Below are positions 24,442-64,000 of a stretch of 64,000 nt of DNA, piece after piece; the stretch's first letter is position 1, and every line of letters begins with the position of its first letter. The notes beneath the pieces are model-generated. The model made no database searches. It saw only the letters and a list, made by a program, of their open reading frames with translations, and was not told where the DNA came from. Origin of the DNA: Acorus gramineus. Lineage: Eukaryota; Streptophyta; Magnoliopsida; Acorales; Acoraceae. The stretch is taken from the NCBI GenBank assembly GCA_030737835.1, contig JAUJYN010000020.1, positions 558,001 through 622,000 on the forward strand, given 5' to 3'. A program made the translations under genes and the position numbers.

Positions 24442-24476
24442 ATGTTTTTGTATTTATTTTGAGGACAAAATTTCCT

Positions 24477-24490
24477 AAGGGGGGGGAGAA
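24477..24490 (+). promoter_or_regulatory. Polypurine tract of element A
   Basis: aaggggggggagaa immediately precedes the TG of the 3' LTR. This is where plus-strand DNA synthesis is primed in LTR elements. Confidence 0.9.
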
Positions 24491-33971: not shown

Positions 33972-35266
33972 ACTACTCCTTTTCTTTTTTTCAAAATGAA
34001 AACTTTGATTTTCTTCAACCTCTCTTCCTTCATTTTGACCTAATCCATCTTTTCCTTTTGATTTTGAAACCCTAAGTTCGGGTCTCCTTTTTCTTTCCAA
34101 TCCAAGGAGATGAGGTCGAAGGCGATTGTTTCAAGGGGGAAATGACCGTGGGTGGTTTGTGGAGAGTGTAGCTTGAGCTCTTCATCATCGGAGAGCGGTA
34201 GGGTGGAGGAAGAGGTCGTGGGAGATTATGAGGTGTTGACCTCCAGTGCCGTGGGCACGAAGGAGGGTGTGGGTGTTGGATCCGAGGCCGAAGAGGCTGA
34301 GGAGGCCGTGATCAAGGAGGAGGGGGATGAGGAGGAGGGAGACGACGACGGGATGGACGATCCTGATGAGGCCGAGGCGGAGGCTTCCGAGGCTACATGA
34401 GCCATGGTATGCCTCTATTTCCCTTTATCTAGCTTTTATTTTTTATATATACATGTTTTTTGTGATATGGACAATGTATAAAATGTGTAAGAAATGTATA
34501 TATGTGTCTTTAATAGGCATGCTTGTTTGCGTATGGAGAAAACTAATCATGGTAGGATTTCATAAGCATGTATTCTCATAATCTATAGAATTTTTTGTTG
34601 CATAGATAGATATGGTTTAGTATGAGAGAGGGTGGTTGTTATATATGTGTCACTTTTAGCCTTCTGGTCACCTTTGGGACATTTCTGGCAGTTTTTCAAC
34701 TTTTTCTTTTTTCGATCGGAACCGCTAAAATTTTGGACTTTTAGCTATCATCATGAGCTTGAGAACTCCGATTGAAAATCTAACTGCACATTATGTGTCC
34801 TGGTGCCATTTCAAACCACTCACGAAAATTTCATCGAATTCCGGTAACGTTTCAGAATTTGGCAGTTCCGAATCGTATCCGGGTTTTGACCGAGTGGGAA
34901 TGTCAAAGGGGGACTTGACCAAGTCAAAGAGGACTTTGACCAAGTCAAGTTTGACCATTGACTTGGTCAAATGGTTTTGTTTTTTTGTGTGGTTGGGTTG
35001 ACTCAAGTCAATCCCCACAAAGCCCTAAGTGTGTGAGTGTGTGTGTGTGAGTGTGTGTGCCCTAAAGTGGGCGTCCCCTTCTTCCCTTCTCTTCTCTTCT
35101 CTTCTTCATCTCTCTCACACACAAAAAGATCCATCTCTCCCTCTTGTTATTTTCTTCCATTAAAGCTAGTAGAAGAAGAAGAAATAGAAAGCCATTGAAG
35201 GGAAAAAGAGAGGTAAGGTTGTGATCTACCTCTCCATGGTCTTTGTTTAATTTCCCCTTTCTCTAC

Positions 35267-35294
35267 CTCCCTCTCATGGCTTCCCCTCCCCCCT
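35267..35294 (+). repeat. 28-bp direct repeat, left copy, flanking the antisense pol block
   Basis: It starts ctccctctcatggcttcccc and ends in a C-run. It is identical to 38240-38267. The uninterrupted family A LTR would have it once. Confidence 0.9.
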
Positions 35295-38239
35295 TACGAA
35301 ATTTTGTCCACAAAATAAATACAAAAACCTCTAGGAAGGGAAAAGATGCGGATATGCGCCACGCATGGCGTCCTCTCGCTCCCAAGTGGCCTCGGCACCA
35401 GAACGGTGCTGCCATCGCACCTTAACTAGCTAGACGGTCTTGGTGCGGAGCCTCTTCTCGCGTCGGTCCAGGATCTCGATCGGCTGCTCCACGAATGACA
35501 AGTCCGGCTCGAAGACGAGCGGCTCGAACGGAATAACGTGAGCAGGATCGTGGACGTAACGCCTCAGCTATGAGACATGGAAGACGTCATGGGCCTGAGC
35601 CAACTGTGGGGGCAGGGCTATGCGATAGGCCACCTCTCCAACCCGCTCGAGGATGAGAAACGGCCCAATGAAACGCGGACTCAGCTTGCCCCGCACACCG
35701 AAACGGAAGATGCCCTTCATCGGGGACACCTTCAGGAAAACATGGTCACCAACCTCGAAGGCGAGCTCACGGCGACGACGATCGGCGTAGCTCTTCTGAC
35801 GGCTCTGAGCGACTCGGATATGCTCACGAATCGTCTTGACCATCTCTGAGGTCTGGTGGATGATCTCTGGTCCCTCCAACTGGTGCTCTCCGACCTCGTC
35901 CCAACACAAGGGGGACCTGCAGCTGCGGCCATAGAGCGCTTCGTATGGTGCCATCCGGATACTCGAGTGGTAGCTGTTGTTGTAGGCAAACTCCACCAAC
36001 GGAAGATGCCTCTCCCAACTGCCCCCAAAGTCAAGAACGCAAGCTCACAGCATGTCCTCCAGGGTCTGAATCGTCCTCTCCGACTGGCCATCTGTCTGTG
36101 GATGAAACGCTGTACTGAAGTGGAGGTTCGTACCAAGGGCGTGCTGAAGGCTACGCCAGAACCTCGAAGTAAATCGCGCGTCTCTATCAGAAATGATGCT
36201 GACGGGAGTGCCATGGAGACGAACAATCTCAGAGACAAACAACTGTGCCAGGGTGTCCAGAGAATCGATGAGTCGAATAGGGAGGAAATGAGCGGACTTA
36301 GTCAGTCGGTCGACGATTACCCATATTGCATCGAGACCCGAACGTGACCTCGACAAACCCGAAACGAAGTCCATGGTGATCTGCTCCCACTTCCACTGAG
36401 GAATCTCAATGGACTGCAGCTTCCCCGCAGGACGCTGATGTTCCGACTTCACCTGCTGGCATACCAAGCAACGGGCAACGAAACGGCCAATATCCGCCTT
36501 CATCCCGCGCCACCAGTAGCCACGACGAAGGCCCCTGTACATCTTCGTGCCACCAGGATGCACTGTGTACCTCGAACGATGGGCCTCGTCCAAGATCTTC
36601 TGCTTCAACTTTGCGTCGTCAGGAATGCATACTCGACCTCTAAACCGCAGGATCCCGTCCTCGTGAATCTGGTAGTCCGGACGCTCGCCCCGGGAGACGC
36701 TTTCAGAGAGGACTAGAAAGTGAGGATCCTGCCCCTGAGCCGTGCGGATCTCGTCGAGAAGAACGGGCTGCACCACTAGCCTGGCCAAAAAGCCACCCGC
36801 AGGAGTCTCTCGAACGCTGATCCAGCAAGCGGCCTCCTCCAGAAGCCTCCAACGACGTACAGCCAAGTGGGCGGCCATGCCCAAGGGCTGCCTGCTGAGA
36901 GCATCGGCCACGACATTCGCCTTACTCGGATGGTAAGCGATGTCACAATCATAGTCCTTCAGGAACTCGACCCAACGTCTCTGACGCATGTTGAGCTCCG
37001 GCTGGGACTGCAAGTAAGTCAAGCTCTTGTGATCAGTGAAGAGCTCGAACTCCTCGCCATAGAGGTAGTGCCTCCACATCTTCAGCGCAAAGATGATCGC
37101 TGCTAACTCTAAGTCATGGGTGGGGTAATTCTGCTCATGGGGCTTCAACTGACGTGACGCGTAAGCCACAACCTTACCGTACTGCATCAGGACACAACCC
37201 ACACCCAGTCGCGATGCATCGGAGTAGACTGCGAATCCACCACTCCCAGACGGAATGGTAAGAACTGGCGCTGAGGTGAGCCTTCGCTTCAACTCTAGGA
37301 AACTCTCCTCGCAAGCTGGGGACCACTCGAACCGGACATCCTTCCGAGTGAGGCGGGTCAGAGGAACAGCTATCTTCGAGAAACCCTCGACAAACCTCCG
37401 ATAATAACCCGCTAAACCCAGGAAGCTCCGAATCTCTGTGGGGTTCGACGGTCGACGCCAATTCAACACGGCGAGCGTCTTGTCCGGGTCCACAGATATG
37501 CCCTCGCCGGAAATCACGTGGCCTAGGAAGGCCATACGCTCCAACCAAAACTCGCACTTACTGAACTTGGCGAACAATTAATGTCGGGCCAAAGTTTCCA
37601 AGACAGTGCGGAGATGGTGAGCGTGCTCCTCAAGACTCCTCGAGTACACCAGAATATCATCGATGAAGACTACTACGAAGGAGTCGAGGAAGGGCCGAAA
37701 CACCCGGTTCATCAGATCCATGAAGGCTGCCAGCGCATTCGTCAACCCAAACGGCAGTACTCGGAACTCGTAGTGCCCCTAACGGGTACGAAAGGCCGTC
37801 TTCGGAATATTTGACTCCCGGATCTTCAGCTGATAGTAGCCCGAACGGAGATCGATCTTAGAAAAGACACGCGCTCCCTGGAGCTGGTCAAACAGATCGT
37901 CAATCCGTGGCAAGGGGTACTTGTTCTTCATGGTCCGCTTGTTCAGCTGCCTGTAATCAATACAAAGACGCAGCGAACCGTCCTTCTTCCGGACGAACAA
38001 AACAGGGGCTCCCCACGGAGAAACACTTGGACGTGCGAAGCCCTTCTCAAGCAACTCCTCCAACTGCTCCTTGAGCACCTTCAGCTCTGTTGGGGCCATC
38101 CGGTACGGAGCTCTCAAAATCGGCTTGGTCCCCAGAATTAGATTAATCTCAAACTCGATCGCGCGATCCGGCGGTAATCCCGGAAGATCATCGGGGAAAA
38201 CCTTTGGATATTCCGCCACGATCGGAGTCTGACTGATAT
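35295..38239 (-). pseudogene. Antisense pol fragment (protease end to chromodomain) inside L5
   Basis: On the minus strand, pol runs from [15 protein letters not shown] (38239) through RT ([16 protein letters not shown]), RNase H ([13 protein letters not shown]), integrase ([22 protein letters not shown]) and chromodomain to the TAG at 35333-35331. It then continues 36 bp into the polypurine tract. In-frame stops occur at about 37777, 37579, 36043, 35566 and 35442. The block starts just after the protease core and ends in the polypurine tract, so it is neither a whole element nor a random fragment. It has no LTR of its own. Confidence 0.92.
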
Positions 38240-38267
38240 CTCCCTCTCATGGCTTCCCCTCCCCCCT
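38240..38267 (+). repeat. 28-bp direct repeat, right copy, flanking the antisense pol block
   Basis: Identical to 35267-35294. The LTR sequence resumes after it with gttttcagccattttaggg. Confidence 0.9.
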
Positions 38268-40141
38268 GTTTTCAGCCATTTTAGGGCTGAGAGTGGCTGA
38301 GGTGGTGGTGGTCTTGGTGGTGGTGATTTGGTGCACAAAGGGCACCCGAGCTTCCTCCCTTGTTCTTCCTCTCTTTGGGTAAGTCTTCCTCCTCCCTTAG
38401 CTTGCTTAGATGTTTGTTTAGGGTGTGTATTTGGGTATGCATGCTATGCATGGGTGTTAGGGGGTGTGGGAGGGCTGAGGAGGGGGTGGAAGGGGATCGA
38501 GCGCGCGTGCAAAGTCATCTGCGTGCGTGCGTGCGCGACTGCGCGCGCAGGCAGGTGCTGGCGTGCGCGCGGGGTGCTGCACGGGTGCGCACGAGGGTGC
38601 GCGCGCGCGGCAGCGCGTTTGGGCGTGCGGGCAGGGGTGCGGCTGTGTGCCAGGGGCGCAAGGGCATGTGCGGGCGTGCGCGTTCGTGCGTGCGCATGCG
38701 GGGGCCCATGCGTATGGCTGCCCGAGGGTTCAGGAGGGTGTCGGTGCACTCAGACTCGCGTGCGTACGAGCGTGCTCGCGTGCGTGCGGGCCCGTATGCA
38801 TGCTTGTCTGAGTATTGGGTAATTCTAGTAAATTTCTTATGTATCTGTGTAGTTTATTCACCATATTGAATGCCTCTGTCTTGCAGATCTTGACGGACGG
38901 TCATGCGAAGACCCGGATTTCGGTGAGTGGGACAATCCAACCCAGTAGGGAGGCGTTCGATGCACGTAGGCGTGCATTGCCCTCCCCTGGGGCACCATAA
39001 TTGTTTATTAACTTGTAATAAATGTAAAACTATGCATGCATGATTAATATGATGTATCCATGCCACCTTAGACTTGTATGCTAGGGATATGCACCCATAT
39101 ATCATGTATAGAGTCCTATGCATGCCTAGACACCATGCCCCAAACTATGTATGTTCCCATCTAGTTTAATCTAATTAAATCAAAATGAGAGCATATAGTT
39201 ATAAGCATGCCTTAGAGAATATTATAACCTTGTTGTTATAATATATGTTTCCCCGCATCTTAGTTATGCGCCCTAGAGGAATTCTTGAGAATTCATGACA
39301 TTATTAGCGTTACAAATCGGTGTCGACGGATCCAAGAGGATCGTATCCGTGTGAGTAGGCTGTCTTCTCCTTTTGGTTGGATCCGATGTAGGGACTCCCC
39401 GGCGTTGGCTGACCTGACAGAGGGCTCTTGTCCGTAGGTACCTCCGATGCGTTGGACAGTACTGATAGTGGGAGTATACCAGGTGGAGGCTACGGAGTGT
39501 GGGAGAGGCTACCGGGTGGACCAGGGGTGGAGAGCGGTCTAGTATGCCCCAAGAGGCCCATGTCACCCCCAGTAAAGGGTGAGGGTGAGGGGGGAGGTGG
39601 GTTGGCGATGAAACGACCCACTAGAATGTGTAGTTGTTCCCGTGTTAGGGACTATAAATCATTTAAGGTTAATATGAATTGTGATGCATGGGTTGTGCTA
39701 TTCACTGAGCGTGTGGCTCACCCCTCGCATATTCTTTTCCTCCAGTTATATCTGAGTCGGATCTGAAGGAGGAGCTCCCCGAGGCACCACAGCAGTAGCG
39801 GAGCAGTGTCACGTTCTGCGAGTGAGAGACCATCAGCATCCCCTTTTTGATTGTATGTATTGTTATCCGTGCTTGGGCACATACTTGTATTTGGATGTCA
39901 TTGTGTATATTGGCTCTCACAGGACAGTTGATTATGTATCGGGTCTGTAATATGTCTTTGAATTACAGACTCAGTCATTTAAGCTTCCGCTATTTGTATA
40001 TATTATGTCAGCCACCTTATTGTCTGTGTTGTCATTTTCGATGTCGTTTAGAGTATTTTATTGATCTCCTATATAGACTGCTGATATTATATATATATTT
40101 GCCACGTATCGGGGACGGCCGCCCTGGGGCGTGATAGTGGT

Positions 40142-42740: not shown

Positions 42741-45300
42741 TGTCACGCCCCAGGGCGGCCGTCCCCGATACGTGGCAAATATATATAATATCAGTAGTCT
42801 ATACAGGAGATCAATAAAATACTCTAAACAACATCGAAAATGACAACACGATCAATAATGTAGCTGACATAATACATATATACATATAGCGGAAGCTTAA
42901 CGACTGAGTCTGTAATTCAAAGACATATTACAGACCCGAATACATAATCAACTGTCCTGTGAGAGCCAATATAAACAAAGACATCCAATACAAGTGTTGT
43001 GCCCAAGCACAGATAACAATACATACAAGCAAGAAAGGGATGTTGATGGCCTCTCACTCGCAGAACCCAAAACGTGACGCTGCTCCGCTACTGCTGTGAT
43101 GCCTCGGGGAGCTCCTCCTTCAGATCTGACTCAGATACAACTGGAGGAAAAGAATATGCGAGGGGTGAGCCACACGCTCAGTGAATGGCACAATCTATGC
43201 AACACAACTCATATTAACCTTAAAATAATTAAAGTCCCTATACGGGAGTAATTACACAAGCTAGTGGGTCGTAACATCGCCGACCCACACCACCCTCACC
43301 CTCACCCTTTAAGGGGTGACATGGGCCTTTTGAGACAGACTAGACTGCTCTCCACCCTTGGTCCACCGGTAGCCTCTCCCACACTCCGTAGCCTCTACCT
43401 GGTATACTCCCACGATCAGCACCCTCCGACGCATCGGAGGTACCTACAGATGGGAGCCCTCTGTCAGGACAGCTTTCCAACGCCGGGGAGTCCCTACTCG
43501 AATCCAACGAAGGGGAGAAAAAAACCTACCCACATGGATACGATCCTTTTGGATCCGTCGACAACGATTCCTAACATTTCTAATGTCATGAATTCTCAAG
43601 AATTCCTCCAGGGCGCATAACTAAGATGCGGGGAAACATATATTATAACAACAAGGTTATAATATTCTCTAAGCCATGCTTATAACAATATATTCTCATT
43701 TGATTTAAATAAATTAAACTAAATGGGAATCATGCGTAGGTCGGGGCTTTCCAATCATGGAACATGGTGTCTAGGCATGTATGGGCCTCTATACATGGTA
43801 TATGGATGTATATCCCTAGCATACAAGGTCTAATATGGCATGGTTACATCATATTAAAACATGCATTACATAGTTTTTCATTTAGCACAAGTTAATATAC
43901 AATTATGGTGCCCCAAGGGAGGGCAATGCACGCCTACGTGCATCGAACGCCTCCCTACTGGGTTGGATTGACCCACTCACCGAAACCCGGGTCGTTGCGT
44001 GACCGTTCGCCAATATCTGCAAGACATGGGCATTCAATATGGTGAGTAAACTACACAATACACATGAAATTTACTAGAAATACCCAAATACTCGGACAAG
44101 CATGCATACGGACTCGCACGCATGCGAGCACGCACGTACGCACGCGAGTCCGAGTGCCCCGACACCCACCTGAACCCTCGGGCAGCAACACGCATGGCCC
44201 CTCGCACGCGCACGCACGAATGCGCATGCACGCATGCGCCCCAGCACCCCTGGCGCACTGCCCGCACGCCTGCCCACGTGCCCAAACGCGCTGCCGCGCA
44301 TCCAGCGGGCGCGCACTGCGCGCCCACGCAGAACCCTGCACGCACGCCCGCGCGCTTGCGCGTACGCGAGCGCGCCCGTCGCGCAGACGTGAGCGCACGC
44401 GCGCGGATGGCTCCGCGCGCGCGCTCGAACCCCTTCCACCCCCTCGTCAGCCCACCCACACCCCCTACCACCTATGCAAGGCATGCATGACCACTTAAAC
44501 ACCCTAACAATCATCTAACCAAGCTAAGGGAGGAGGAGGACTTACCAACAAGGAGGGGAAGGAAAAGGGAGGAAGCTCGGGTGCCCTTTGCGCACCAAAC
44601 CACCACGACCGCCACCACCAAGACCACCACCTCCTCAGCCACTCTCAAACCCTAAAAATGGCTGAAAACAGAGGTGGGGAGGGAAGGCATGAGAGGGAGA
44701 TAGAGAGAAGGAAAACAAAAACAAACTCCATACAAGGGTTGCACACACACATACCTTCACTTCTCCTCTCTAGGGTTTTCTTCTTCTTCTTCTTCTACTA
44801 CTACTATTTGGAACAACAAGAAGAGGGAGTGATGGAGTGTGTGAGAGGGAGATGGAGATGGGGAAAAGAAGGGGGACGCCCACTAATAGGACCTCACACA
44901 CACACACACACTCACACATTAATGAAAAAAAAAGTTGGTGAGGCTTGACTTTGAGTCAACCCAACCACACAAAAAAACAAAAGGATTTGACCAAGTCAAT
45001 GGTAAAATTTGACTTGGTCAAGTCTCCCCTTTGACTTTTCCACTCGGTCAAAACTCGGATACGATTCGGAACTGCCAAATTCTGAAACATTACCGGAATA
45101 TGATGAAATTTTCGTGAGTGGTTTGAAATGGCATTAGGACACATAATGTACAGTTAGATTTTCAATCGGAGTCCTCGAGCTCATACAGATAGCTAAAAGT
45201 CCAAAATTTTAGCGGTTCCGATCGAAAAAAGAAAAATTGAAAAACTGTCAGAAATGTCCCAAAGGTGACCAAAAAGGCTAAAAGTGACACATATATAATA
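42741..45300 (-). mobile_element. Solo LTR L6, family A (2560 bp)
   Basis: On the minus strand it starts TATTATATATGTGTCAC (45300; G... region changed at base 2) and ends GGGGCGTGACA (42741). TSD GATCG is at 42736-42740 and 45301-45305. The intron is 44545-44017 (GTAAGT to CTGCAG-type acceptor, minus strand). It splits the coiled-coil exon of the PMD pseudogene, whose frame resumes after it. Confidence 0.92.
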
Positions 45301-45777: not shown

Positions 45778-46111
45778 TTATTCGGATGACGTATAGCCCA
45801 AGACATTTGGAGTTGGAGCTCTTTTGGTGGACCTATCCCTTCTTTTTCTTTTATAAAGACTTTCTTTTGTGTAATTTTTATGTTTTAGGGACAATTTATG
45901 TCTTTTCATGCATGATTTATGTATTTAAACATGGTTGTTTAGTTTTGAAAGTATTTTAATTCTTATTTTGATGATTGTGTATGTGTGTGGTGAATGGTTG
46001 GGTGTGCGAATGGATGAATGTGTAAGAGTTAGTATTGATGCATGGATTGGTGTATGTTTTTAGTTTTGATTGCTGTTTGATTTGGTTTTATACAGGTTTT
46101 GTGGATGTATA
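45778..46111 (+). other. 3' flank of the PMD pseudogene
   Basis: A/T-rich sequence probably representing the 3' UTR. It is interrupted by element E at 46112 and resumes at 53055. No ORF is supported. Confidence 0.5.
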
Positions 46112-47703
46112 TGTTATATATGTGTCACTTTTTAGCCTTCTGATAACCATTGGAGCATTCTAGCAGTTTTTCAGCTTTTTCATTTTTCGATCGGAACTGC
46201 TAAAATTTTAGACTTTTGGTTGTCACCCTGAGTTTGGGAGCTCCGATTGAAAATCTAACTGCATATGACCTAGTAGAAGGTGTTGGATCAAGAAACCCTA
46301 GAAGGAGAAAAGATAGCCCCTCTTTGGCTGAGTGGAGATCTTGGTGGTGGTGGTCTTGGAGGTGGCAAATCGGTGCGTGAAGAGCACCCGATCTCCTCCC
46401 CTTCCTTTCCTCTCCTTTGGATCTTGACGGACGGTCACGCGATGACCCAGGTATTGGTGAGTGGGACAATCCAACCTAGTTGGGAGGCGTTCGATGCACG
46501 TAGGCGTGCATTGCCCTCCCCTGGGGCACCATAATTGCATATTAGCTAGTATAAATTGTAAACTATGCCTTGCATGAATATTTTGTTGTATCCATGCCAC
46601 CTTAGCTATGCATGCATGATAAATATGATATATCCATGCCACCTTAGATTTGTATGCTAGGGATATGCACCCCTACATCATTATAGAGGCCTATGCATGC
46701 CTAGACACCTTACCCCGACCTGCGCATGTTCCCACCTAGTTTAATTCAGTTAAATTAAATGTGAGCATGCCTTAGAAAATATTATCACTTGTTGTTATAA
46801 TATAGGCTTCCCCGCATCTTAGTTATGCGCCCTGGAGGAATTCGCAAGAATTCATGACATTTAAATTGTTAGGAAGATGTTGCTGACGGATCCGATTGGA
46901 TCGTATACGTGTGGGCACGCTGTTTCTCTTCCCTTCGTTGGATCCGTGTAGGGACTCCTCAGCGTTAGACAGGCCGTCCTGACAGAGGGCTCCCATCAGT
47001 AGGCACCTCCTGATTTGGTTTTGGACTGTGCTGAATGTGGGAGTAGACCAGGCGAGCTACGGTGTGGAGGAGAGGCTATCGGTGGACCAAGGGTGATCAA
47101 CAGCCTAGTCAGTCCCAAAAGACCATGTCACCAGTTTGAGGGTGAGGGTGAGGGTGTAGTGGGTTGGCGATGAGCGACCCACTGGTTTGTGTAGTTGTTG
47201 CCACTTAGAGGCTATGAATGATTGAGGTTAATATGAATTGTGATGCATGGGTTGTGCTATTCACTGAGCGTGTGGCTCACCCCTCGCATATATATTTTTT
47301 CCAGTGTTATCTGAGCCGGATCAGCAGGAGGAGCTCCCCAAGGGATTTCACCAGTAGCGGAGCAGCGCCACATTCCGCGAGTGTTAGAGGCTATCAGCAT
47401 CCCTTTTTGATTGTATGTATTGTATTTCGTGCTTGGGCACTCGTTTGTATTATATTTGGATGTCGTTGTACATATTGGCTCTCACAGGACAATTGATTAT
47501 GTATCGAGTCTGTAATATGTTTTTGAATTACAGATTCAGTCTTTTAGCTTTCGCTATTTGTTTATATATCATGTCAGCCTCATTGTCATCTGTGTCGTCA
47601 TTGTTGATGTTGTTTAGAGTATATTATTGACCTCCTGTTTAGACTGCTGATATCATATATACCATTTGCCGCGTCCCGGGGACGGCCGCCCTGGGGCGTG
47701 ACA
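46112..47703 (+). mobile_element. 5' LTR of element E (1592 bp)
   Basis: It runs from TGTTATATATGTG to GGGGCGTGACA. Compared with the 3' LTR it lacks about 350 bp between two CATAT words (junction at about 46265; the 3' LTR equivalents are at about 51232 and 51609). The spliced-type junction cctttgg|atcttgacgg is at 46420/46421. Confidence 0.93.
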
Positions 47704-47708
47704 AAAGT

Positions 47709-47720
47709 TGGTATCAGAGC
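47709..47720 (+). promoter_or_regulatory. Primer binding site of element E (initiator tRNA-Met)
   Basis: TGGTATCAGAGC lies five bases after the 5' LTR and is the standard complement of the plant initiator Met-tRNA 3' end. Confidence 0.95.
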
Positions 47721-47841
47721 CTGGTCTTATTAGAGCCAATGGTCTTCTTTTTCGTAGAGATGAGTCCTAGGATTTCTATATGAGTATTCTGATCCTAGTG
47801 TCTGGTTTTCTTAGGTTGCTGATAAGCCTCCTCGCAGAGGA

Positions 47842-49212
47842 ATGCGTGGACGTGGTCCCTCTCGACCTTTGGAGGTTCCCGGACCTACCAGAGGTGAGGA
47901 TGCTACTGGAGAGTCCTCGGCTGTGGGGCCAGGATTGGCACAGGAGCCTCTTGCATGGGAGCGTGCTTACGCTCGGATAGCAGATCTGGTGGAGACTCAG
48001 ACCAGAGCATTAGAGGCCCAGGCGAGGGCGTTAGCTGAGCATGCTAGAGAGATTCAGGAGCTGAGGGCGGCCCGTGATGCAGTTCCACAGGCCCCCTTAG
48101 TGGCAGATCCGCCTGTGGTACCTGATGTACCTCCTGCTCCCGTGGTGATTCCAGCGGTAGGAGTTCAGGATCCCCTGGTGAGGGAGGTGGAGCTAGAGGC
48201 TGTAGCGCGAGTGCACCAGAGTGGCCTCACTGCCTTTCTGAAGCTCCACCCTCCCGAGTTCCACGGACAGACGTCGGATCCCCTTGCCCCTGAGAGATGG
48301 TTGATGGAGGTGGACAAGATCTTTGCGACCATACACTGCACCGATCGCCAGCAAGTCTCCTTGGCCACCTTTATGCTGAAGGGTAGCGCCGCCGACTGGT
48401 GGGCTACTAGATCGGTGGACATTCTAGAGGGAGTAGAGCAGCTTCTATGGGCGGGATTCCGGAGGTATTTCCTGGAGGAGTACTTCCCGTTTTTGACGCG
48501 CCAGATCGTGATGCGGGAGTTTGAGCAGCTGACGCAGGGCTCCATGTCAGTCGCGGACTACTCTACACGCTTCACGAGGCTTTCCAGGTTCGCCCCAGCC
48601 TTGGTGATGGACGAGGAGACGCGGTGCCGTCGATTCGAGATGGGTCTCATCAGCACCATTCGGGTGCATGTCTCTTCGCAGGCATTCACGAGGTACTCGG
48701 ACTTGGTGTCTCGGGCGAAGACAGTCGAGCGAGACCTCGGGGCCTCTATGGGGGTTCCAACCCCTTCGATAGAGCAGAGACCTCCCAGGAGCCCGGACCA
48801 GGGACAGCGCAAGAAGAAGCGGCCCCGCTTTGATCAGTCAGCAGCTGCCGCTATTCCAGTCGATGTGGTGCCAGTGCGAGGTCCAGCACCCATTGCGGCA
48901 GTACCAGTCCAGTCCAGGCGACCGGAGACGCGGCGCTGCTACCACTGTCAGCGCATCGGGCATATTATGTATAATTGCCCAGATGCTGGCCGACCCCGCG
49001 TGCTGCCTCCACAGCAGCAGCACCCACAGGGTGGTCGTGTTGACCAGTGGAGGCAGCCTGTGCAGCCTACGAGGCGTGCCCCTGCTCCTCAGCCACAGTT
49101 TGTCCAGGGCAGAGTTGCAGCACTTTCGGCCGAGGAGGCGCAAGTTCCGGGTATCATGGTCCGAGGTATTATTTTGATTTCCCAGCTCCCTAGATATATA
49201 TGTGTTATTTGA
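47842..49212 (+). CDS. gag of element E
   Basis: An open frame of 456 codons. In element IV the protein starts 6 codons earlier (ATGTCTCCTCGC). In E that ATG has become ATA, so the in-frame ATG at 47842 is the first usable start. Features in order: a Glu/Ala-rich helix (residues about 40-80), the retrotransposon gag core (FLKLHPPEFHG, PERWLMEVDKIF, ATFMLKGSAADWWATR, EQLTQGSMSVADYSTRFTRL; about 135-260), a basic region (GQRKKKRPRFDQ) and a CCHC knuckle (CYHCQRIGHIMYNC; about residue 367). It would form the virus-like particle and bind the RNA. The frame ends after ISQLP, where pol should continue into the protease. This is the only open gag in the window. Confidence 0.92.
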   Translation: MRGRGPSRPLEVPGPTRGEDATGESSAVGPGLAQEPLAWERAYARIADLVETQTRALEAQARALAEHAREIQELRAARDAVPQAPLVADPPVVPDVPPAPVVIPAVGVQDPLVREVELEAVARVHQSGLTAFLKLHPPEFHGQTSDPLAPERWLMEVDKIFATIHCTDRQQVSLATFMLKGSAADWWATRSVDILEGVEQLLWAGFRRYFLEEYFPFLTRQIVMREFEQLTQGSMSVADYSTRFTRLSRFAPALVMDEETRCRRFEMGLISTIRVHVSSQAFTRYSDLVSRAKTVERDLGASMGVPTPSIEQRPPRSPDQGQRKKKRPRFDQSAAAAIPVDVVPVRGPAPIAAVPVQSRRPETRRCYHCQRIGHIMYNCPDAGRPRVLPPQQQHPQGGRVDQWRQPVQPTRRAPAPQPQFVQGRVAALSAEEAQVPGIMVRGIILISQLPRYICVI

Positions 49213-49290
49213 TTTCGGAGCATGGGTTTCCTGTAGAGTTAGTAGTGTTCTTTAAGGGTGATGTCTTCTTCTAGTGTTCCTTTTCTGGAT
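49213..49290 (+). pseudogene. Protease remnant of element E
   Basis: After atatatatgtgttatttgat the text jumps to ggagcatgggtttcctgtag. This skips about 130 bp that contains the DSGATHSF active site in element IV. Only a few codons either side remain. Confidence 0.75.
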
Positions 49291-49391
49291 TAAGGGGCCT
49301 TGCGAGGTCAGCGTTGAGACCCGGGCTAGGGTACTCCATGTTCCTTGTTTGGTTGTCGGGATATCCTATATCGGGACCTCATGGTGCCCTC
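49291..49391 (+). mobile_element. 100-bp patch of family A LTR inside the pol of element E
   Basis: aaggggccttgcgaggtcag to cctcatggtgccctcc matches 26393-26490 of the element A LTR nearly base for base, in the same orientation. It replaces the missing front half of RT and looks like templated filler at a deletion joint. Confidence 0.88.
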
Positions 49392-49449
49392 CCAACGCTT
49401 CTTTTCCCAGTCAAGGAATACCTTAGAAGCATCAAATTGATGGTGGATT

Positions 49450-50378
49450 AAGTGCGAGTTTTGGTTGGAGCGTATGGCCTTTCTGGGCCACGTGATTTCC
49501 GGTGAGGGCATATCTGTGGACCCGGACAAGACGCTCGCCGTGTTGAATTGGCATCGACCGTCGAACCCCTCAGAGATTCGGAGCTTCCTGGGCTTGGTGG
49601 GTTATTGCAGGAGGTTTGTCGAGGGTTTCTCGAAGATAGATGTACCTCTTACCCGCCTCACTCGAAAGGATGTCCGGTTCGAGTGGTCCCCGTCTTGCGA
49701 GGAGAGCTTCCAGGAGTTGTAGCGAAGGCTCACCTCAGCGCCAGTTCTTACCCTTCCGTTTGGGAGTGGTGGGTTCGCAGTATACTCTGATGCATCGCGG
49801 TTGGGTGTGGGTTGCGTCCTAATGCAGCATGGTAAGGTTGTGGCTTACACAATGCGTCAGTTGAAGCCCCATGAGCAGAATTACCCCACCCATGACCTAG
49901 AGTTGGCAGCGATCATCCTTGCGCTGAAGATGTGGAGACATTACCTCTATGATGAGGAGTTCGAGCTCTTTAATGATCATAAGAGCTTGACATAATTGCA
50001 GTCCCAGCCGGAGCTCAACATGCGTCAGAGACGTTGGGTTGAGTTCCTAAAGGACTATGTTTGTAACATCGCTTACCATCCTGGTAAGGCGAATGTCGTG
50101 GTGGATGCTCTCAGCAGGCAGCCCTTGGGCATGGCCGCCCACATGGCTCTACGTCGTTGGAGGCTTCTGGAGGGGGCCGCTTATTGGATCAGCGTTAGAG
50201 AGACTCCTGCGGGTGGCTTTTTGGCCAGGCTAGTGGTGCAGCCGTTCTTCTCGACGAGATCCGCACGGCTCGGGGGCAGGATCCTCACCTTTTAGTCCTC
50301 TCTGAAGGCGTCGCCCGGGGCGAGCGTCCGGACTACCAGATTCGTGAGGACGGGATCCTGCGGTTCAGAGGCCGAGTA
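49450..50378 (+). pseudogene. RT C-terminal end and RNase H of element E
   Basis: The frame starts within [17 protein letters not shown] and runs through [61 protein letters not shown] and [11 protein letters not shown]. Stops lie at 49720 and 49993, and a frameshift lies near 50243. The RT active-site half is missing. Confidence 0.88.
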
Positions 50379-51031
50379 TGCATTCTGACGACGCAGAGCT
50401 AAAGCAGAAGATCTTGGTCGAGGCACTCTATGGCCGCAGCTGCAGGTCCTCCTTGTGTTGGGACGAGGTCGGAGAGCGCCAGTTGGTGGGACCAGAGATC
50501 AACCACCGGACCTCAGAGATGGTGAAGAAGATTCGCGAGCGTATCCGAGTCGCTCAAAGCCGTCAAAAGAGCTACGCCGATCATCGTCGCCGTGAGCTCG
50601 CCTTCAAGGTTGGTGACCATGTCTTCTTGAAGGTGTCCCCGATGAAGGGCATCTTCCGTTTCGGTGTGCGGGGCAAGCTAAGTCCGCGTTTCATTGGGCC
50701 GTTCCTCATCCTCGAGCGAGTTGGGGAGGTGGCCTATCACATAGCTCTGCCCCCACAGTTGGCTCAGGCCCATGACGTCTTCCATGTCTCGCAGCTGAGG
50801 CGTTATGTCCACGATCCTGCTCACGTCATCCCGTTCGAGCCACTCGTCTTCGAGCCGGACTTGTCATTCGTGGAGCAGCCGATCGAGATACTGGACCGCA
50901 GCGAGAAGAGGCTCCGCACCAAGACCGTCCAGTTGGTCAAGGTGCGATGGCAGCACCGTTCCGGTGTCGAGGCCACTTGGGAGCTCGAGGACGCCATGCG
51001 TGACGCGTATCCACATCTTTTCCCTTCCTAG
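50379..51031 (+). pseudogene. Integrase C-terminus and chromodomain of element E
   Basis: [19 protein letters not shown] joins the start of the integrase zinc-finger region to its C-terminal part. The zinc finger and the D-D-E core are deleted between two (A)CGAGGC words. The rest is open to TAG at 51029: the [14 protein letters not shown] segment and the chromodomain [19 protein letters not shown]. Confidence 0.9.
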
Positions 51032-51058
51032 ATGTTTTTGTATTTATTTTGAGGACAA

Positions 51059-51079
51059 AATTTCCTAAGGGGGGAAGAA
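51059..51079 (+). promoter_or_regulatory. Polypurine tract of element E
   Basis: aatttcctaaggggggaagaa precedes the TG of the 3' LTR. Confidence 0.9.
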
Positions 51080-53049
51080 TGTTATATATGTGTCACTTTT
51101 TAGCCTTCTGGTAACCATTGGAGCATTCTGGCAGTTTTTTAACTTTTTCATTTTTCGATCGGAATAGCTAAAATTTTGGACTTTTAGCTATCATCCTGAG
51201 TTTGAGGACTCCGATTGAAAATCTAACTGCATATTATGTGTCCTGGTGCCATTTCAAGCCACTCACAAAAATTTCATCGAATTCCGGTAACGTTTCAGAA
51301 TTTCACAGTTCTGAATCGTATCCGGGTTTTGACCGAGCGAAAAGTCATTGGGAGACTTGACTTGGTCAAAGTTGACCTTGACTTGGTCAAATGATTTTGG
51401 TTTTTAGTGTGGTTGGGTTGACTAGGGTCAAATCTCACCTAAACCTAACCTAAACCTAGTTAAACCTAATTAGCCTAAGTGTAAGTGGTGTGTGTGTGTG
51501 TGGTGTGTGTGTGTGAGTGCATTAAGTGGGCGTCCCCCTCTAATAAGTCCTCCCCCTATTCATCTTCTTCTCCACCAAAACCTCTCTCTCCCTTCTCTCT
51601 AAAACCCCCATATGACCTAGTAGAAGGTGTTGAATCAAGAAACCCTAGAAGGAGAAAAGATAGCCCCTCTTTGGCTGAGTGGAGATCTTGGTGGTGGTGG
51701 TCTTGGAGGTGGTAAATCGGTGCGCGAAGAGCACCCGATCTCCTTCCCTTCCCTTCCTCTCCTTTGGATCTTGATGGACGGTCACGCGATGACCTGTGTA
51801 TTGGTGAGTGGGAAAACCCAACCCAGTTGGGAGGCGTTCGATGCACGTAGGCGTGCATTGCCATCCTCTGGGGCACCGTAATTGCATATTAGCTAGTATA
51901 AATTGTAAAGTATGCCTTGCATGAATATTTTGTTGTATCCATGCCACCTTAGCTATGCATGCATGATGAATATGATATATCCATGCCACCTTAGATTTGT
52001 ATGCTAGGGATATGCACCCTTACATCATATTAGAGGCCTATGCATGCCTAGACACCTTACCCCGACCTGTGCATGTTCCCACCTAGTTTAATTCAGTTAA
52101 ATTAAATGTGAGCATGCCTTAGAAAATATTATCACTTGTTGTTATAATATAGGCTTCCCCGCATCTTAGTTATGCGCCCTGGAGGAATTCGCAAGAATTC
52201 ATGACATTTAAATTGTTAGGAAGATGTTGCCGACGGATCCGATTGGATTGTATACGTGTGGGTAGGCTGTTTCTCTTCCCTTCGTTGGATCTGTGTAGGG
52301 ACTCCTCTGCGTTAGACAGGCCGTCCTGACAGAGGGCTCCCATCAGTAGGCACCTCCTGATTTGGTTTCGGACTGTGCTGAATGTGGGAGTAGACCAGGC
52401 GAGCTACGGTGTGGAGGAGAGGCTATCGGTGGACCAAGGGTGATCAACAGCCTAGTCAGTCCCAAGATACCATGTCACCAGTTTGAGGGTGAGGGTGAGA
52501 GTGTAATGGGTTGGCGATGAGCGACCCACTGGTTTGTGTAGTTGTTGCCACTTAGAGGCTATAAATGATTGAGGTTAATATGAATTGTGATGCATGGGTT
52601 GTGCTATTCACTGAGTGTGTGGCTCACCCCTCGCATATATTTTTTCTCCAGTGTTATCTGAGTCGGATTAGCAGGAGGAGCTCCCGAGGGACTTCAGCAG
52701 TAGCGGAGCAGCGCCACATTCCGCGAGTGTTAGAGGCTATCAGCATCCCTTTTTGATTGTATGTATTGTATTCTGTGCTTGGGCATATGTTTGTATTATA
52801 TTTGGATGTCGTTGTACATATTGGCTCTCACAGGACAGTTGATTATGTATCGAGTCTGTAATATGTCTTTGAATTACAGATTCAGTCTTTTAGCTTTCGC
52901 TATTTGTGTATATATCATGTCAGCCTCATTGTCGTCTGTGTTGTCATTGTTGATGTTGTTTAGGGTATATTATTGAACTCCTGTTTAGACTGCTGATATC
53001 ATATATACCATTTGCCGCGTCCCGGGGACGGCCGCCCTGGGGCGTGACA
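51080..53049 (+). mobile_element. 3' LTR of element E (1970 bp, intron-less)
   Basis: It runs from TGTTATATATGTGTCAC to GGGGCGTGACA. The text cctctcctttgg|atcttgatggacgg (51767/51768) is continuous where other family A LTRs have an intron of about 510-800 bp. The rest aligns with the element A LTR throughout. Confidence 0.94.
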
Positions 53050-53054
53050 GTATA

Positions 53055-56023: not shown

Positions 56024-58293
56024 TATTATATATGTGTCACTTTTTAGCCTATTGGTCACATTTGGGTCATTTCTGGCCATTTTCTAATTTTTCTTTTTTC
56101 GATCGAAGCCGCTAAAATTTTAGACTTTTAGCTATCTGTGTGAGTTCGAGTACTCCGATTGGAAATCTAACTGCATATTATGAGTCCTGGTACCATTTTG
56201 TACTACTCATAAAAATTTCATCGAATTCCAGTAACGTTTTAAAAATTATGCAGTTTCGAATCGTATCCGGGTTTCGGTCGTTACTGGTTTGTTTGGTGGA
56301 ATAGTGTTGGGATATTTTGGTGGTTATGGTAACCTTGGGTAACCTCACCCCCCTCTTGCTTAATGGGTAAGAAAACTTTGGTTATTTTTTGATGTGTGTG
56401 GGTGAGTTTAACTTAGGTTCACCACCCCCTTTTTCCCTTCTCATCACCCCCCCATTTGAGAAAAAAAGTTATTTCTCTCTCTCTCTTTCACCACCTCTCA
56501 CGCCTCCCTCTCCCTCTTGTTTGTGTGTGTGTGTGTGTGTTTTGAAGGAAAAGAAGGAGAAGAAGAAGCCAAAGAAGAGGAGAAGTGAAAGAGAAGGGAC
56601 ACACAAAGGTGTGTAAATGTGTTGTTTGTAGTGATTGTTGATTCCCCTTTTGCCCCTGATTTTCAGCCAAGTAAGGCTGAGGAGGTGGTGGTGTTGGTGG
56701 TGGCGGTTGCGGTGGTTTTGGTGCGCCAAGAGCACCCGAATACCTCCCCTTTTCTTTCCCCTCCTTTGGTAAGCTCTCCTCCTCCCTTATCTATGTTTTA
56801 ATGGTTGTTAGGGCTGTTAGGGTGATCATTTATGCCATGCATGTGGGCTAGGGTGTGTGTGAGGGCTGTGGAGGGGGTGGGAGAGGTCTGGGCGCACGCG
56901 CGGGGCCATCCACGCACGTGCGCGCGCAGACGCGGGCGCAGAGGGGTGCTGGCTCGCACAGTCAGGCGCACTGGCGGGCGCACGCGCGTAAGCGCAGGCG
57001 CGCGAACGTGCGTGGGAGGAACTGGCGCGAGCGCGCAGTGCGCGAGAGTGCGCGCAGGCACGTGCGAGCGCGCGCGCGCGCGCGACAGCGCGTCTAGACG
57101 CGGAGTTGGGCGCGTGGCAATGCGCCAGGGGGTGCGGGGGCGCGTGCTTATGCGTGCGGGGGGCCACGCATGTGGTTGCCCGATGGTTCGGGTAGGTGTT
57201 GGGGCACTCGGACTTGCGTGCGTACGTGCGTACTCGCATGCGTGCGAGCCCGTATGCGTGCTTGTCCGAGTCTTTGGCATTTCTAGTAAATTCCATGTAT
57301 ATTTATGTAGTTATACTCACCATATTGAATGCCCTTGTCTTGTAGATCTTGGCGAACGGTCACCAACGACCCGGGTTGTGGTATATTTATTATCCATGTT
57401 ATATATGCTTAGGTTGAGCCTCAAATCTTGCCTAATGAGTTTAGGCAAGTGTATGACCACTTATGGGGGTCATACTTGGCAATTGTCACTATGAATAATA
57501 TGTTTTCCCCGCATCTGAGTTATGCGCCCTGGAGGGAATTCTTGAGAATTCGTTACCGTATCGGTGTTTAGTAACCGGTGTCGACGGATCCAAGAGGATC
57601 GTATCCGCAAGTGTAGATTGTTTTCTCCCCTTCGTTGGATCCGATGTAGGAACTCCCCGGCGTTGGGAAAAGTTGTCTTGACAGAGGACTCCCATCCGTA
57701 GGTACTACCGATGCAATCGGGAACGTACTGATCGTGGGAGTATACCAGGTAGAGGCTACCCGGGGAAAGGGCTACCGGTGGACCAAGGGTGTAGAGCAGT
57801 CTAATCTCTCCCAAAAGTCCTATGTCACCTCTAAAGGGTGAGGGTGTGGTGGGTCGGCGTCGCTACGACCCACCAATTTGTGCAGTTACTCCCATCTTAG
57901 GGACTTTAATGATTTTTTTAAGGTTAAATATGAGTTGTGTTGCATGGATTGTACCATTCACTGAGCGTGTGGCTCACCCCTCGCATATCTTTTTCCTCCA
58001 ATTGTCGTTGAGTCGGATCTGAAGGAGGAGCTCCTCGAGGCATCGCACCAGTAGCGGAGCAGCGTTCGAGTTTTGGGTCTTGCGAGTGAGAGGTCATCAG
58101 CATCCCCCTTTTTCCTTGTATGTATTGTTACTCGTGCTTGGGCACAATACTTGTATGTTGATGTCTTTGTTTTATATTGGCTCTCACAGGACAGTTGATT
58201 ATGTATTCTGGTCTGTAATATGTCTTTGAATTACAGACTCAGTCGTTAAGCTTCCGCTATATGTATATATATTATGTCGGCTGCATTGTTAAT
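56024..58293 (+). mobile_element. 5' LTR of element IV, family A, 3' end deleted
   Basis: It starts TATTATATATGTGTCAC (G to A in the terminal TG). The intron is 56769-57345 (GTAAGC to TTGTAG). A deletion near 57380-57480 removed the block found in other LTRs between ccgggt and the gaatattat stretch. A second deletion at about 58293 joins the LTR body to tcctaggatttctatatgag of the gag leader, so the LTR terminus and PBS are lost. Confidence 0.85.
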
Positions 58294-59732: not shown

Positions 59733-62700
59733 TGTCACACCCCAGTGCGACCATCCCTGAGACGTGGCAATAATGAAATATCAGCTATCAATACCTGAGG
59801 TCAATAAAGACTCCAACAACAACACACAAGGTGGCAAAGCAAAGATAATGATAACTGACTGAAAAGCGGAAGCATAATATATAAACAATGTTTGTAAATC
59901 AAAAACATTATTACAGACTCGAATACACAATCACTGTCCTGTGAGAGCCAAGTCTAGTCCAAATAAAATACAACCTGTGCCACATGCACGATTTATAATA
60001 CATAAAATGACTCTAGGACTGCTGACAGCCTCGCACTCGCCACCCGCCAGAAGAACGCTCCACGCCCATAAGACCACGCCACAGGAAAGCTCCCACTCCA
60101 CACCCAACACTGCCCCTAAAAAGAAACAGTATGCGAGGGGTGAGCTACAAGCTCAGTGAGTGGCTGGAAACCAATCACCATACAACAGTTCAATGCTAAC
60201 ACAATTTCCTTTCAAGGAAAAACATGGGTAGAAACCCATGGATAATAGGGTCATGCGGCGGCGCGACCAACCTCACCCTCACCCTCACTCCCGGAGGAAG
60301 ACTCTTGGGTCTTTTGGGGAGAGACCATACCGTTGGTCGAGGAGACCCGGGATTACTGGTCCACACAACACTACTGGATCACCAACCTCACCCTCACCCT
60401 CACTCCCAGAGGGAGACTCTTGGGTCTCTTGGGGAGAGACCATACCGTTGGTTGACGAGACCCGGAATTACTGGTCTACACAACACTACTGGATCATCTA
60501 CATCGAGATAACTGCCCAACGATGTCTTTGAACATCGATACGCAACCGGACAACTATGGGCACGGACGAACCACGAATGGGTCACGCAGTGACGTGTCTT
60601 CACCTCATCCTCACCCTCACCCTTTACAGGTGACATAGGACTTTCACCTCATCCTCACCCTCACCCTCACCCTCACTCCTCTACACCCTTGGTCCACCGG
60701 TAGCCCTTTCCCCGGGTAGTCACTATCTGATATACTCCCACGATCAGTACGCTTCTAAGCGCCTCGGTGGTACCTACGGATGGGAGCCCTCTGTCAGGAC
60801 AGCTTTTCCAACGCTGGGAAGTTCCTACATCGGATCCAACGAAGGGGAGAACGATTCCACGCTCACAATATCATTCGTTAGCCCTCTCCCGGGTAGCCTC
60901 TACCTGGTATACTCCCACGATCAGTATGTTTCCGAACGCATTGGTGGTACCTACGGATGGGAGCCCTCTGTCAGGACAGCTTTAACCCGGCCCGCTTCAA
61001 CACGGACGACATTGGGAGGAAACACTCCATGTTCGCAAAGCAAACCCAATGGAAAAACAACTACTCTCGATAATCACATATCGATGATATCGAATACTAT
61101 TGTACTCCCACACGGTTGCGTTGCTCGGACACAAGGGGGTTGCCTCTGCTCTCACGCAGAAATAATCCCAAGGCACATAACCCAACAGGCGGTTCATATA
61201 CACGCCTAGCACGGGTAGGCCTAGCTTAATGCCACAACTACCGGTTTAACAAAACCGATAAGATAATGAATTCTCCTGAATTCCAAACGAGTGCATCGCT
61301 CAGATGCACGGGGGCGATTACATCGCTAGCGCTCTGACTAATAAGGTACAACCCGACAACGGGTCATACCCACGCCTATTTTAGATAGGCCTAATTAGTT
61401 TTAACATGCGCATATATTTTATAGGAGAATTTAATCTTAGTTATGTGCATGAACCATATGCACGATCACATATCAATTAATCATAGGGATACTCCCTAAT
61501 CATAGATTTACATCATAATAAATCATACAACATGCATACATGGTAATTAATCACATAAGCACACAAGGCCTAACTTAAGCATGCGTTGGATATCACAAAC
61601 ATAAAAGGTATGGGTCAAGTGCGATCTCACGCACTAACAGGTTCATGCCAATATTCCAAAGGAACCTGAGTCGAGTAGGAATTCGCATCTACTTACTCAG
61701 TTCGTTCAGAGGGAGAGGGCGAGAGAGATCATCATCTCATGAAGTCGGTCATAGCTTTGCCCCATTAGCATGGGCGCAACAACTACACCACGCCCTTGAG
61801 TCTTATCGCAAGGGAATATTAGGCAGGTGCCCGTTATTAACCCAGACTTAATCATGCTGGATATTCCAATTAATATGGTGGGAGTAGTATTACAATACTA
61901 CCTAAGGCATGCCATATTCTATACATCAATACACATTACAGCAATACATGCCCATACTAGAGGGGCGCATGCAACACAATCATTCATACATGGATACAAT
62001 ACATGTAATATAAGCCTAGCATGCAAGATATCTAACATATTATAGTCTAAGCATGGTCATACTACTTATCTACACAAGTAGTATAGCTAGGACGCCCCAT
62101 CGATGCGCGACGCGGGACCTCGCGCATCCCATCCGATGAGATCTGCAAGGTAAGGGCATCAAATTTGGTGAGTAACAACACATTATAACATTTAGAAATT
62201 ACTAGAAATGCCTAAGACTTAGATATGCACGCATACGGGCTCGCATGCATGCGACCACGCGCGTACGCACACATGCCCAAGTGCCCCAGCACCTACCCGA
62301 GACCCTGGGCAGCCCCGCGCATGCCCCAGCACGCGCACGCACACACACGCACGCGCGCATGCGCACTGGCACCCTGTCGCATGCCCAGGCGCATGCCCAG
62401 ACGCACTGTCCCGTGTGCGTGCACCCTCGCGCTTGCCCGCGCGCACTCTCGTGCACGCCCTGCGTGCACCCCGCTCGCTGCCAGCATCCGCGCGCACGCG
62501 CCCGCCTGCGCCTGCCAGCTCCCCTCTGCGCGCGCGTCTGCGCGCGCACGCGCGCGGACAGACCCGCGCGCGCGCCCAACATTCCCCAACCCTCCCCCCT
62601 TGCCCCTACATGCACCCAACTCAAAACACCTCACATGCATGCCCTCCCAAACACCCTAACATGCATAAAAGCCAATTAAAGAAGAGGGAAACTCACCAAA

Positions 62701-63501
62701 AGAGAGGGGGAGGGAAGGGGGAGATGTAGGGGCTCGCAAGCGCACCCTTGACCACCTCGACCGCCACCACCACTACCACCACCTCCATCTTTGCTTCTCT
62801 TCTTCATGGCTGAACCAAAGGGGAGGGGAAAGAAAATAAGGGGATCCACCATGGGAGGAGGAGAGGGAGGAGAAACAATCAACAATACATGCATACCCAC
62901 ACACACTCACCTAGTCTTACACTTGCACTTCCTCTTCTTGCTCCATCTTCTTCTCCTTGACATTTCATCAAACACTTGGGGAGTGTTTGAAAGAGAGAAA
63001 GAGAGCCCCAAAGAGAGGTCCACGTGGGGAGTGGGAGAGGGAGAGAGAGAGAGACTTTTTTCTCACATGGGGGGGGGGGGTGAGTGTAATGGAAAAATGT
63101 GGGGGTGAACCTAACCTAACCTCACCCACTAACACTTTAAATAACCAATTGGTTGCTTCACCACTAAGAAAAGGGGGGTAAGGTTACCCAAGGTCACCAC
63201 ATTCACCAAAATATCTCACACTATTCGACTAATCAAACCAGGAACTCTCAAAACCCGGATACAGTTCAGAACTGCATATTTTTCAAAACGTTACCGGAAT
63301 TCGATGAAATTTTTATGGGTAGTACTAAACGGTACCAGAACAAATAATATGTAGTTAGATTTTCAATCAGAGTACTCCAACTCCCGCAGGTGGCTAAAAG
63401 CCAAAATTTTAGCGACTCCGATCGAAAAATTAAAAGGCCCTGAATGACCCAGATGTGACCAAGGCTTAACCGAAATGGCTCCAAATGACACAGGCATAAC
63501 A
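59733..63501 (-). mobile_element. Solo LTR L7, family B (3769 bp), inside element IV
   Basis: On the minus strand it starts TGTTATGCCTGTGTCA (63501) and ends GGGGTGTGACA (59733). TSD CCTGC is at 59728-59732 and 63502-63506, and removing one copy restores an open gag-protease reading. The leader intron is 62696-62143 (GTGAGT to TTGCAG). It carries two copies of the 115-bp unit. Confidence 0.95.
60266..60495. repeat. 115-bp tandem duplication in L7
   Basis: Units 60266-60380 and 60381-60495 both run from accaacctcaccctcaccct to cacaacactactggatc with few differences. The same unit is duplicated around element A in L3 but single in L1 and L4. Confidence 0.9.
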
Positions 63502-64000
63502 CCTGCATATGTGCTATTTGATTCTGGGGCCACGCACTCGTTTGTGTCTCCCGTTTTTGCGAGACGGATGGGCATGGTGTCGGCCCCTCTTGATGCTATG
63601 CTGGAGATATCATTGCCCTTCGGAGACCATATTCTCCTCCGTTCTGTTTATCGGGGGTGTGCCGTGGTGATTGCGGAGCATGAGTTTCCATTAGAGTTGG
63701 TCGAGCTCACCATGACGGACTTCGATGCCATCCTGGGAATGGATTGGCTCTCAGCTAGCCACACCAGTATTGACTGTTTTGCAAAGTCTGTGTCCTTTCA
63801 CATCCTTGGTCAGAGATCTTTCCAGTTCATGGGCGATCGGGACATAGCCCCTTTGGGGTTCGTGTCGTCCATCCAGGCATGGAGACTCCTTTAGGGAGGA
63901 TGTGAGGGTTTTCTGGCGTACATTGTTGAGGAGGATGCACCACTGCGGGCAGATATCAGTCAGACTCCGGTTGTGGCAGATTATCTAGAGGTTTTTCCCG
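63502..64000 (+). pseudogene. Protease and start of RT region of element IV, cut by window end
   Basis: AYVLFDSGATHSFVSPVFAR gives the retropepsin active-site DSG. DFDAILGMDWLSASH follows. A TAG at 63892 interrupts the linker (sister copies have CAG), after which the frame goes on to [15 protein letters not shown] at the window edge. It is the only place in the window with an intact protease active site. Confidence 0.9.

Follow-up and report, generated by a model that had tools for sequence, protein, structure and literature searches.

A retrotransposon insertion in Acorus gramineus without two putative leader introns in either long terminal repeat: a probable copy of spliced RNA

Background

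Introns are generally absent from the long terminal repeat (LTR) retrotransposons of plants, the exceptions being Ogre and EVADE (PMC12786077). In Ogre, a plant Ty3/gypsy element of the Tat group, genomic copies keep a spliceosomal intron and part of the transcripts is spliced (PMC6317226, PMC12786077); the intron is situated between reading frames (PMC6317226). In the barley Ty1/copia element BARE1, translation and replication draw on different RNA pools, of which one is spliced, and splicing is named for Bagy2 and CRR as well (PMC3735527). Here we describe element E, an insertion in a 64,000-nucleotide stretch of the Acorus gramineus genome (assembly GCA_030737835.1, contig JAUJYN010000020.1, positions 558,001 to 622,000; "the window"), both of whose LTRs lack blocks that related LTRs carry between splice-like borders.

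Genomic copies of the family of E likewise keep their putative introns, but in contrast to Ogre these are located in the LTR and leader, so that their loss is visible in both LTRs. The Ogre-type position between gag-pro and pol is not the one found, introns 1 and 2 being inside the LTR. BARE1 differs by a 104-nt intron in gag, the excerpt mentioning no LTR intron, and its authors were unable to amplify DNA copies of spliced BARE RNA (PMC3735527). In Penelope-like elements, copying apparently permits intron retention, as it would here, and an antisense template has been discussed as one route to it (PMC3846280). These elements are not LTR retrotransposons, however, and have other enzymes and other terminal repeats. 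An intron is present near the Penelope terminal repeat. Defective foamy proviruses are made from spliced RNA, with the intron in a 3' gene and not in both LTRs, and some retroviruses have splice donors in R with acceptors far downstream. Spliced element RNA is reverse-transcribed in intron-marked Ty, as we propose for E, although there the intron is artificial and not in both LTRs (PMC12786077). Solo LTRs start spliced transcripts (PMC4558846), and splicing is also described in foamy viruses (PMC7828637). The excerpts of PMC12786077, PMC6317226, PMC3846280, PMC4558846, PMC7828637 and PMC3735527 describe no plant LTR that contains an entire intron, and our literature search, with most subscription journals outside its coverage, recognised no intron wholly inside an LTR.

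Results

The site that we call intron 2 is readable in 11 LTRs of the window, the two of E (E5 and E3) and nine others (Table 1). All nine non-E LTRs bear a block of 508-796 bp at this site, starting with GTRAG and ending with YAG (eight CAG, one TAG), which bears out an earlier note on this DNA reporting such a block of 0.5-0.8 kb. In both LTRs of E the block is missing, and exons 2 and 3 are joined as ..CTCTCCTTTGG/ATCTTGA.. (the slash marks the joint). When E3 was aligned with a single gap to each of the nine, S3 and Bm63 had the GT-AG placement among their equal best, and A3, S1, IV, Bp18 and Bp31 missed it by one base; in S2 the left edge of the gap was displaced by three bases and the right edge by one, and in Bm29, with low scores, the gap was misplaced on the right. 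The one-base spread arises because the T run and the number of G residues before the joint vary; three T are present in E, S3 and IV, two in A3 and one in S1. The earlier claim of exact loss stands as regards the joint, which is the same in both LTRs and exact against S3; its wording that nothing was lost or gained does not hold for every comparison.

That note had seen a single lost intron, and intron 2 is indeed gone; it had missed a second block of about 91 bp, intron 1, which is absent from both LTRs of E about 100 nt further upstream. In A3 this block reads GATAG/GTAAGG...TTTCAG/CC, 91 bp long, and E joins GATAG to CC. Sites comparable to those of A3 are present in S1, S2 and Bm63, and weaker ones (GTGTGT) in IV and Bm29; the 3' end is CAG in seven of nine copies and CTG in the remaining two, Bp18 and Bp31. 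The left border is firm against both A3 and S1. On the right, A3 allows three equally good single-gap placements, the exact splice among them; with S1 the edge falls one base away, and three other placements score equally. Measured from the joint, a shared GGCTGA lies equally far away, within about 1 nt, in E, A3, S1 and S3. We consider intron 1 probable, its right edge being inferred.

Splicing had been put forward as the best explanation, together with two tests of it, the borders of the gaps and the phylogeny of the copies, and both support it. For the borders, E5 was compared with A3 and, at intron 1, also with S1. The joints are the same in both LTRs of E, and intron 2 has GT/AG borders within the one-base spread; at intron 1 the 5' side equals a splice site and the 3' side is compatible with one.

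If ordinary DNA deletion were the cause, two independent events would have had to remove the blocks from a parent LTR, both at splice-like borders, before it transposed; we consider this very unlikely. Deletions do occur in E and its relatives, and the gap of intron 1 can be aligned as two gaps. Nevertheless, among random deletions (200,000 draws for each of A3, S1, S2 and IV; 60-849 bp in A3), GTRAG..YAG borders appeared in A3 in 0.025% of draws if two placements were allowed and in 0.04% if three were, and in 0.0085-0.04% across the four LTRs with two or three placements. Two losses in one leader, both beginning at a 5' splice site, also argue against ordinary deletions. Two other deletions examined in E are of another kind. 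One, which makes up most of the length difference between its LTRs, removed about 379 bp of U3 at a pair of CATAT repeats in the 5' LTR; the other, in pol, sits in an ACGAGGC repeat. Both were rejected as splicing products, being located in short repeats of 5-7 bases. Splicing is favoured because, unlike these repeat-based deletions, both blocks missing from the leader begin at a 5' splice site and intron 2 also ends at the 3' site.

The body of intron 2 is of two types. In Bp18 and Bp31 it has 37% GC and an observed-to-expected CpG ratio of 0.07-0.13 (AT-type), in the other seven copies 61-68% GC and a ratio above 1.1 (GC-type); only the two AT-type bodies are U-rich, as looked for in a U2-type intron. 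The measured pieces of U3, exons and intron 1 have CpG ratios from 0 to 0.9. No clear homology was detected between the two types: six of the seven GC-type comparisons with Bp18 gave z scores of at most 1.6 and the remaining one (Bm63) 3.0, as against 309 for Bp18-Bp31. Bp18 and Bm29 are 87.5% identical in exon 2 and 89.5% in exon 3, and their similarity is bounded by GTAAG at one edge of the block and by TTGCAG at the opposite edge. Exon identity is lower in other pairs (exon 2, Bp18-Bm63 64%; exon 3, Bp31-Bm29 76% and Bp31-Bm63 77%). In four pairs the splice sites stay while intron 2 changes more quickly than exon 3 (identities 85% vs 93% in A3-S1, 85% vs 90% in S2-S3, 63% vs 78% in A3-S2 and 75% vs 94% in Bm63-Bm29). 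In the tree of U5 sequences described below, Bp18 and Bp31 do not group as sisters, and thus recombination is also at work. The swap of bodies would be explained if an intron was lost through splicing and another later gained at that site, or by recombination with an unseen subfamily.

A further alternative, which we regard as highly improbable, is that a distinct module with splice-like edges, mobile or recombined, makes up the block and that E lost it by recombining with a module-less relative. The unrelated block between the same edges in two B LTRs implies that such a module would be exchangeable, but the edges agree with the splice consensus in nine of nine copies, and the second, upstream block is lost in E as well.

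For the direction of change, a tree was computed from U5 (10 rows, 1913 columns, Bm29 left out), in which all seven inner branches are starred and E is sister to A3+S1, followed by S3, S2, IV and family B, all of them bearing intron 2. The U3 tree is weaker (three of eight branches starred) and still groups E with A and S1; E5, covering 33% of its columns, is not joined with E3. A root on the stem of E, which is 0.041 long in the U5 tree, would place the E tips at 0.06 and the B tips at 0.68-0.70 from it. Because E is nested among intron-bearing copies, the change is a loss. Judged from these trees it arose in the E lineage and may have happened in the parent of E or earlier on the stem. That the intron-less form came first and the blocks were inserted later is hardly credible, since, although an unrooted tree alone permits one change either way, it needs precisely this root, E pairs with A3+S1 amid copies that bear the intron, and no target duplication was seen by eye around the intron 2 block in A3; the phylogenetic test of the earlier note has the same outcome.

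A third intron, retained in E, is predicted to extend from U5 to just before gag. Its 5' motif GGTGAGTGG is present downstream of the intron 2 joint in 9 of the 11 LTRs; 0.46 chance matches are expected in the whole window, and two further matches occur elsewhere. Just before gag, E and IV share CTGATCCTAGTGTCTG..TTT.CTTAG/GTTGCTGAT, which resembles a branch point, a pyrimidine tract and a 3' splice site, and among 1422 windows compared between E and IV, the 58-column one at the gag start, chosen after the site had been seen, shows the highest conservation (97% vs 78% overall). The primer-binding site TGGTATCAGAGC, presumably of the tRNA-Met type, follows the 5' LTR of E within this predicted intron. 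Most chromoviruses have a tRNA-Met primer-binding site (PMC6317226). Counted from the assumed start of exon 1, 36 of 38 ATGs of the E 5' leader are inside predicted intron 3. In E3, exons of 195 nt contain 3 ATGs vs 35 in the 1246 nt of LTR-borne intron 3; these counts are within a factor of two of expectation, and a shortage of upstream AUGs in exons was not used as proof. Extension of the gag frame through exon 3 in A3 was dropped, its ATG not being present in all copies. Retention of the predicted intron in E fits the need for a primer-binding site.

E is flanked by a 5-bp target site duplication (TSD), as in normal integration, and its LTRs have the termini TGTTATAT...GTGACA. Over 1442 aligned positions the two LTRs share 96.3% identity, which at a plant substitution rate of 1.3e-8 suggests an age of roughly 1.4 million years. 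Profile search in six frames found gag and RNase H in E, which is without most of the reverse transcriptase (RT) and the integrase core. In the neighbouring A element it found RT, RNase H and the zinc-binding and C-terminal integrase domains, the match to the integrase core being below the Pfam cut-off. E and A together have the plant Ty3/gypsy domain order gag, RT, RNase H, integrase. Chromodomain (PF00385) matches, all below the Pfam cut-off, were obtained with 75-amino-acid pieces of E (E=4.3e-4) and A (E=2.8e-4) and with the 226-amino-acid frame of E (E=0.0032). The RT frame of A matched all 7964 scored candidates; among the 120 matches listed, the named ones belong for the most part to seed plants (Cucumis, Solanum, Vitis, Tanacetum and others), with two bacterial names. 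On these domains and matches the family is plant Ty3/gypsy and very probably chromovirus. Its long LTRs, which we take to point to the Tekay/Del clade, make it perhaps Tekay/Del-like.

TSDs, all of 5 bp, were read for four copies (Table 1), and the ends of the A element showed no matching target duplication. In IV, intron 1 is less certain and the 5' splice site of intron 3 is not kept. Intron 1 of S3 is split by a 2958-bp antisense internal fragment of its own family, 93% identical to positions 21527-24484, with a 27-bp duplicated stretch ending CCCCCC on each side; one end is at the polypurine tract, and the fragment has no LTR of its own. Segments of about 110-130 bp beginning GGGGCCTTGCGAGG... 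start at 26394 (+), 15008 (-) and 49294 (+). The first two belong to U5 of A3 and S1, the third lies between gag and pol of E, and no other was found in the window; AATATTRTAA repeats border the segment of A3. Rfam gave no matches in the window.

Table 1. Coordinates of element E and of related LTRs in the window (5'ss, 3'ss: 5' and 3' splice site)
Feature	Position	Strand	Remarks
Element E, full insertion	46112-53049	+	TSD GTATA at 46107-46111 and 53050-53054
5' LTR of E	46112-47703	+	1592 bp; without introns 1 and 2; from TSD and alignment
3' LTR of E	51080-53049	+	1970 bp; without introns 1 and 2; from TSD and alignment
Exon 1/exon 2 joint, E 5' LTR	46316/46317	+	intron 1 missing
Exon 2/exon 3 joint, E 5' LTR	46420/46421	+	intron 2 missing
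Exon 1/exon 2 joint, E 3' LTR	51663/51664	+	intron 1 missing
Exon 2/exon 3 joint, E 3' LTR	51767/51768	+	intron 2 missing
Predicted intron 3, retained in E	46457-47814	+	5'ss ATTG/GTGAGTGG in U5; 3'ss ..GTTTTCTTAG/GTTGCTGAT just before gag
Primer-binding site	47709-47720	+	5 nt past E 5' LTR
gag open frame of E	47815-49212	+	PF03732 (Retrotrans_gag), E=1.1e-15
Gap from gag to RNase H in E	about 49212-49441		
pol remnants of E	49441-51031	+	RNase H, integrase C-terminus, chromodomain-like end
LTR A3	24491-27438	+	intron 1 25067-25157; intron 2 25262-26041; intron 3 5'ss 26078
Solo LTR S1	13895-16908	-	TSD GTGTA; introns 1 and 2; intron 2 16153-15358
Solo LTR S2	42741-45300	-	TSD CGATC; introns 1 and 2; intron 2 44545-44017
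LTR S3	34637-40136	+	TSD GTGGT; insert 35288-38245 splits intron 1; intron 2 38379-38886
5' LTR of IV	56024-58281	+	3' end deleted; intron 2 56769-57345
Family B LTR Bm63	59733-63502	-	GC-type intron 2 62696-62143; intron 3 5'ss deleted
Family B LTR Bm29, truncated	28086-29846	-	GC-type intron 2 29082-28570
Family B LTR Bp18, first part	18134-20759	+	AT-type intron 2 18912-19431
Family B LTR Bp31, start approximate	30350-33971	+	AT-type intron 2 31225-31742

Relatives were also sought outside the window. The gag pattern had no match in viral contigs and 32 pattern matches in genome contigs, of which none was confirmed. The RT profile confirmed none of 15 pattern matches in viral contigs and 12 loci of 43 in genome contigs, all 12 in bacterial records and probably contaminants. 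Three of them (L004, L008 and L011) have a match resembling the primer-binding site. In L008, a distant relative on what is probably a plant contaminant contig in a bacterial assembly, CTATAG, which resembles a 3' splice site, was found by eye four bases before the gag ATG (1448-1460).

Discussion

Element E is, in our opinion, very likely a reverse-transcribed copy of an RNA from which the introns of the LTR leader had been spliced out, a reading drawn from DNA sequence comparison. The LTRs of this chromovirus family would bear spliceosomal introns in their transcribed leader (R-U5), transcription starting upstream of intron 1. The usual template would be RNA that keeps the introns, so that most copies carry them; nine of ten readable insertions in the window keep intron 2, which suggests that the introns normally stay in the template RNA. 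In the template of E, introns 1 and 2 would have been spliced out, with the primer-binding site and the remainder of U5 still present. Strong-stop cDNA, copied from R-U5 at the RNA 5' end, ends up in both LTRs. Copying and transfer of a spliced R-U5 would accordingly yield two new LTRs without introns, the loss affecting both because the introns lie in R-U5. Splicing of intron 3 would produce a gag mRNA with a short leader and without the primer-binding site. The fully spliced RNA might then serve for translation and only RNA keeping intron 3 for copying, because removal of this intron would take the primer-binding site away; selection may favour intron keeping. BARE1, too, divides its RNA between translation and replication, as outlined above.

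Several observations weigh against this explanation. Only one intron-less insertion, E itself, is known, within the window. A YTRAY branch-point motif is present within 70 nt of the 3' end of intron 2 in six of nine copies. GC-type intron 2 contains 21-25% U and is not U-richer than its flanks, a composition unlike that of usual plant introns (PMC3735527); this fits poor splicing and retention, yet weakens the intron call. As regards intron 1, S2 places the gap near the expected position, but alignments with IV and with the family B LTRs fail to locate it; the best alignments with free gaps put CCCCTCTTT of E within the pyrimidine-rich intron 1 of A3 or S1, and the right border is not fixed by sequence, length being its support. 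The donor of intron 3 is lost in two of 11 LTRs, IV and Bm63. Bp18-Bp31 is opposite to the other pairs in having a better conserved intron 2 (95%) than exon 3 (84.5%), likely owing to recombination. Finally, a pattern scan of L008 found no GGTRAG in the first 1700 bases and did not flag the CTATAG site. Because neither site was flagged, this locus does not show leader introns to be general.

A wider proposal, which we offer tentatively and regard as doubtful, is that splicing separates translation from replication. Removal of intron 3 would delete the primer-binding site together with most upstream AUGs and give the gag mRNA, and E would be a rare by-product of this arrangement, having lost introns 1 and 2 but not intron 3. 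Intron-less intermediates might later acquire another intron where the first had been, which would explain the two AT-type B LTRs; an RNA that copies itself would then both lose and gain introns.

Conclusions

If element E was copied from spliced RNA, a leader whose introns are lost in both LTRs is a genomic record of the structure of the RNA that was reverse-transcribed, and it places the introns in R-U5. The use of one RNA for both translation and replication would thereby become countable within a genome, and the swap of intron bodies between LTRs would present a natural test bed for intron gain.

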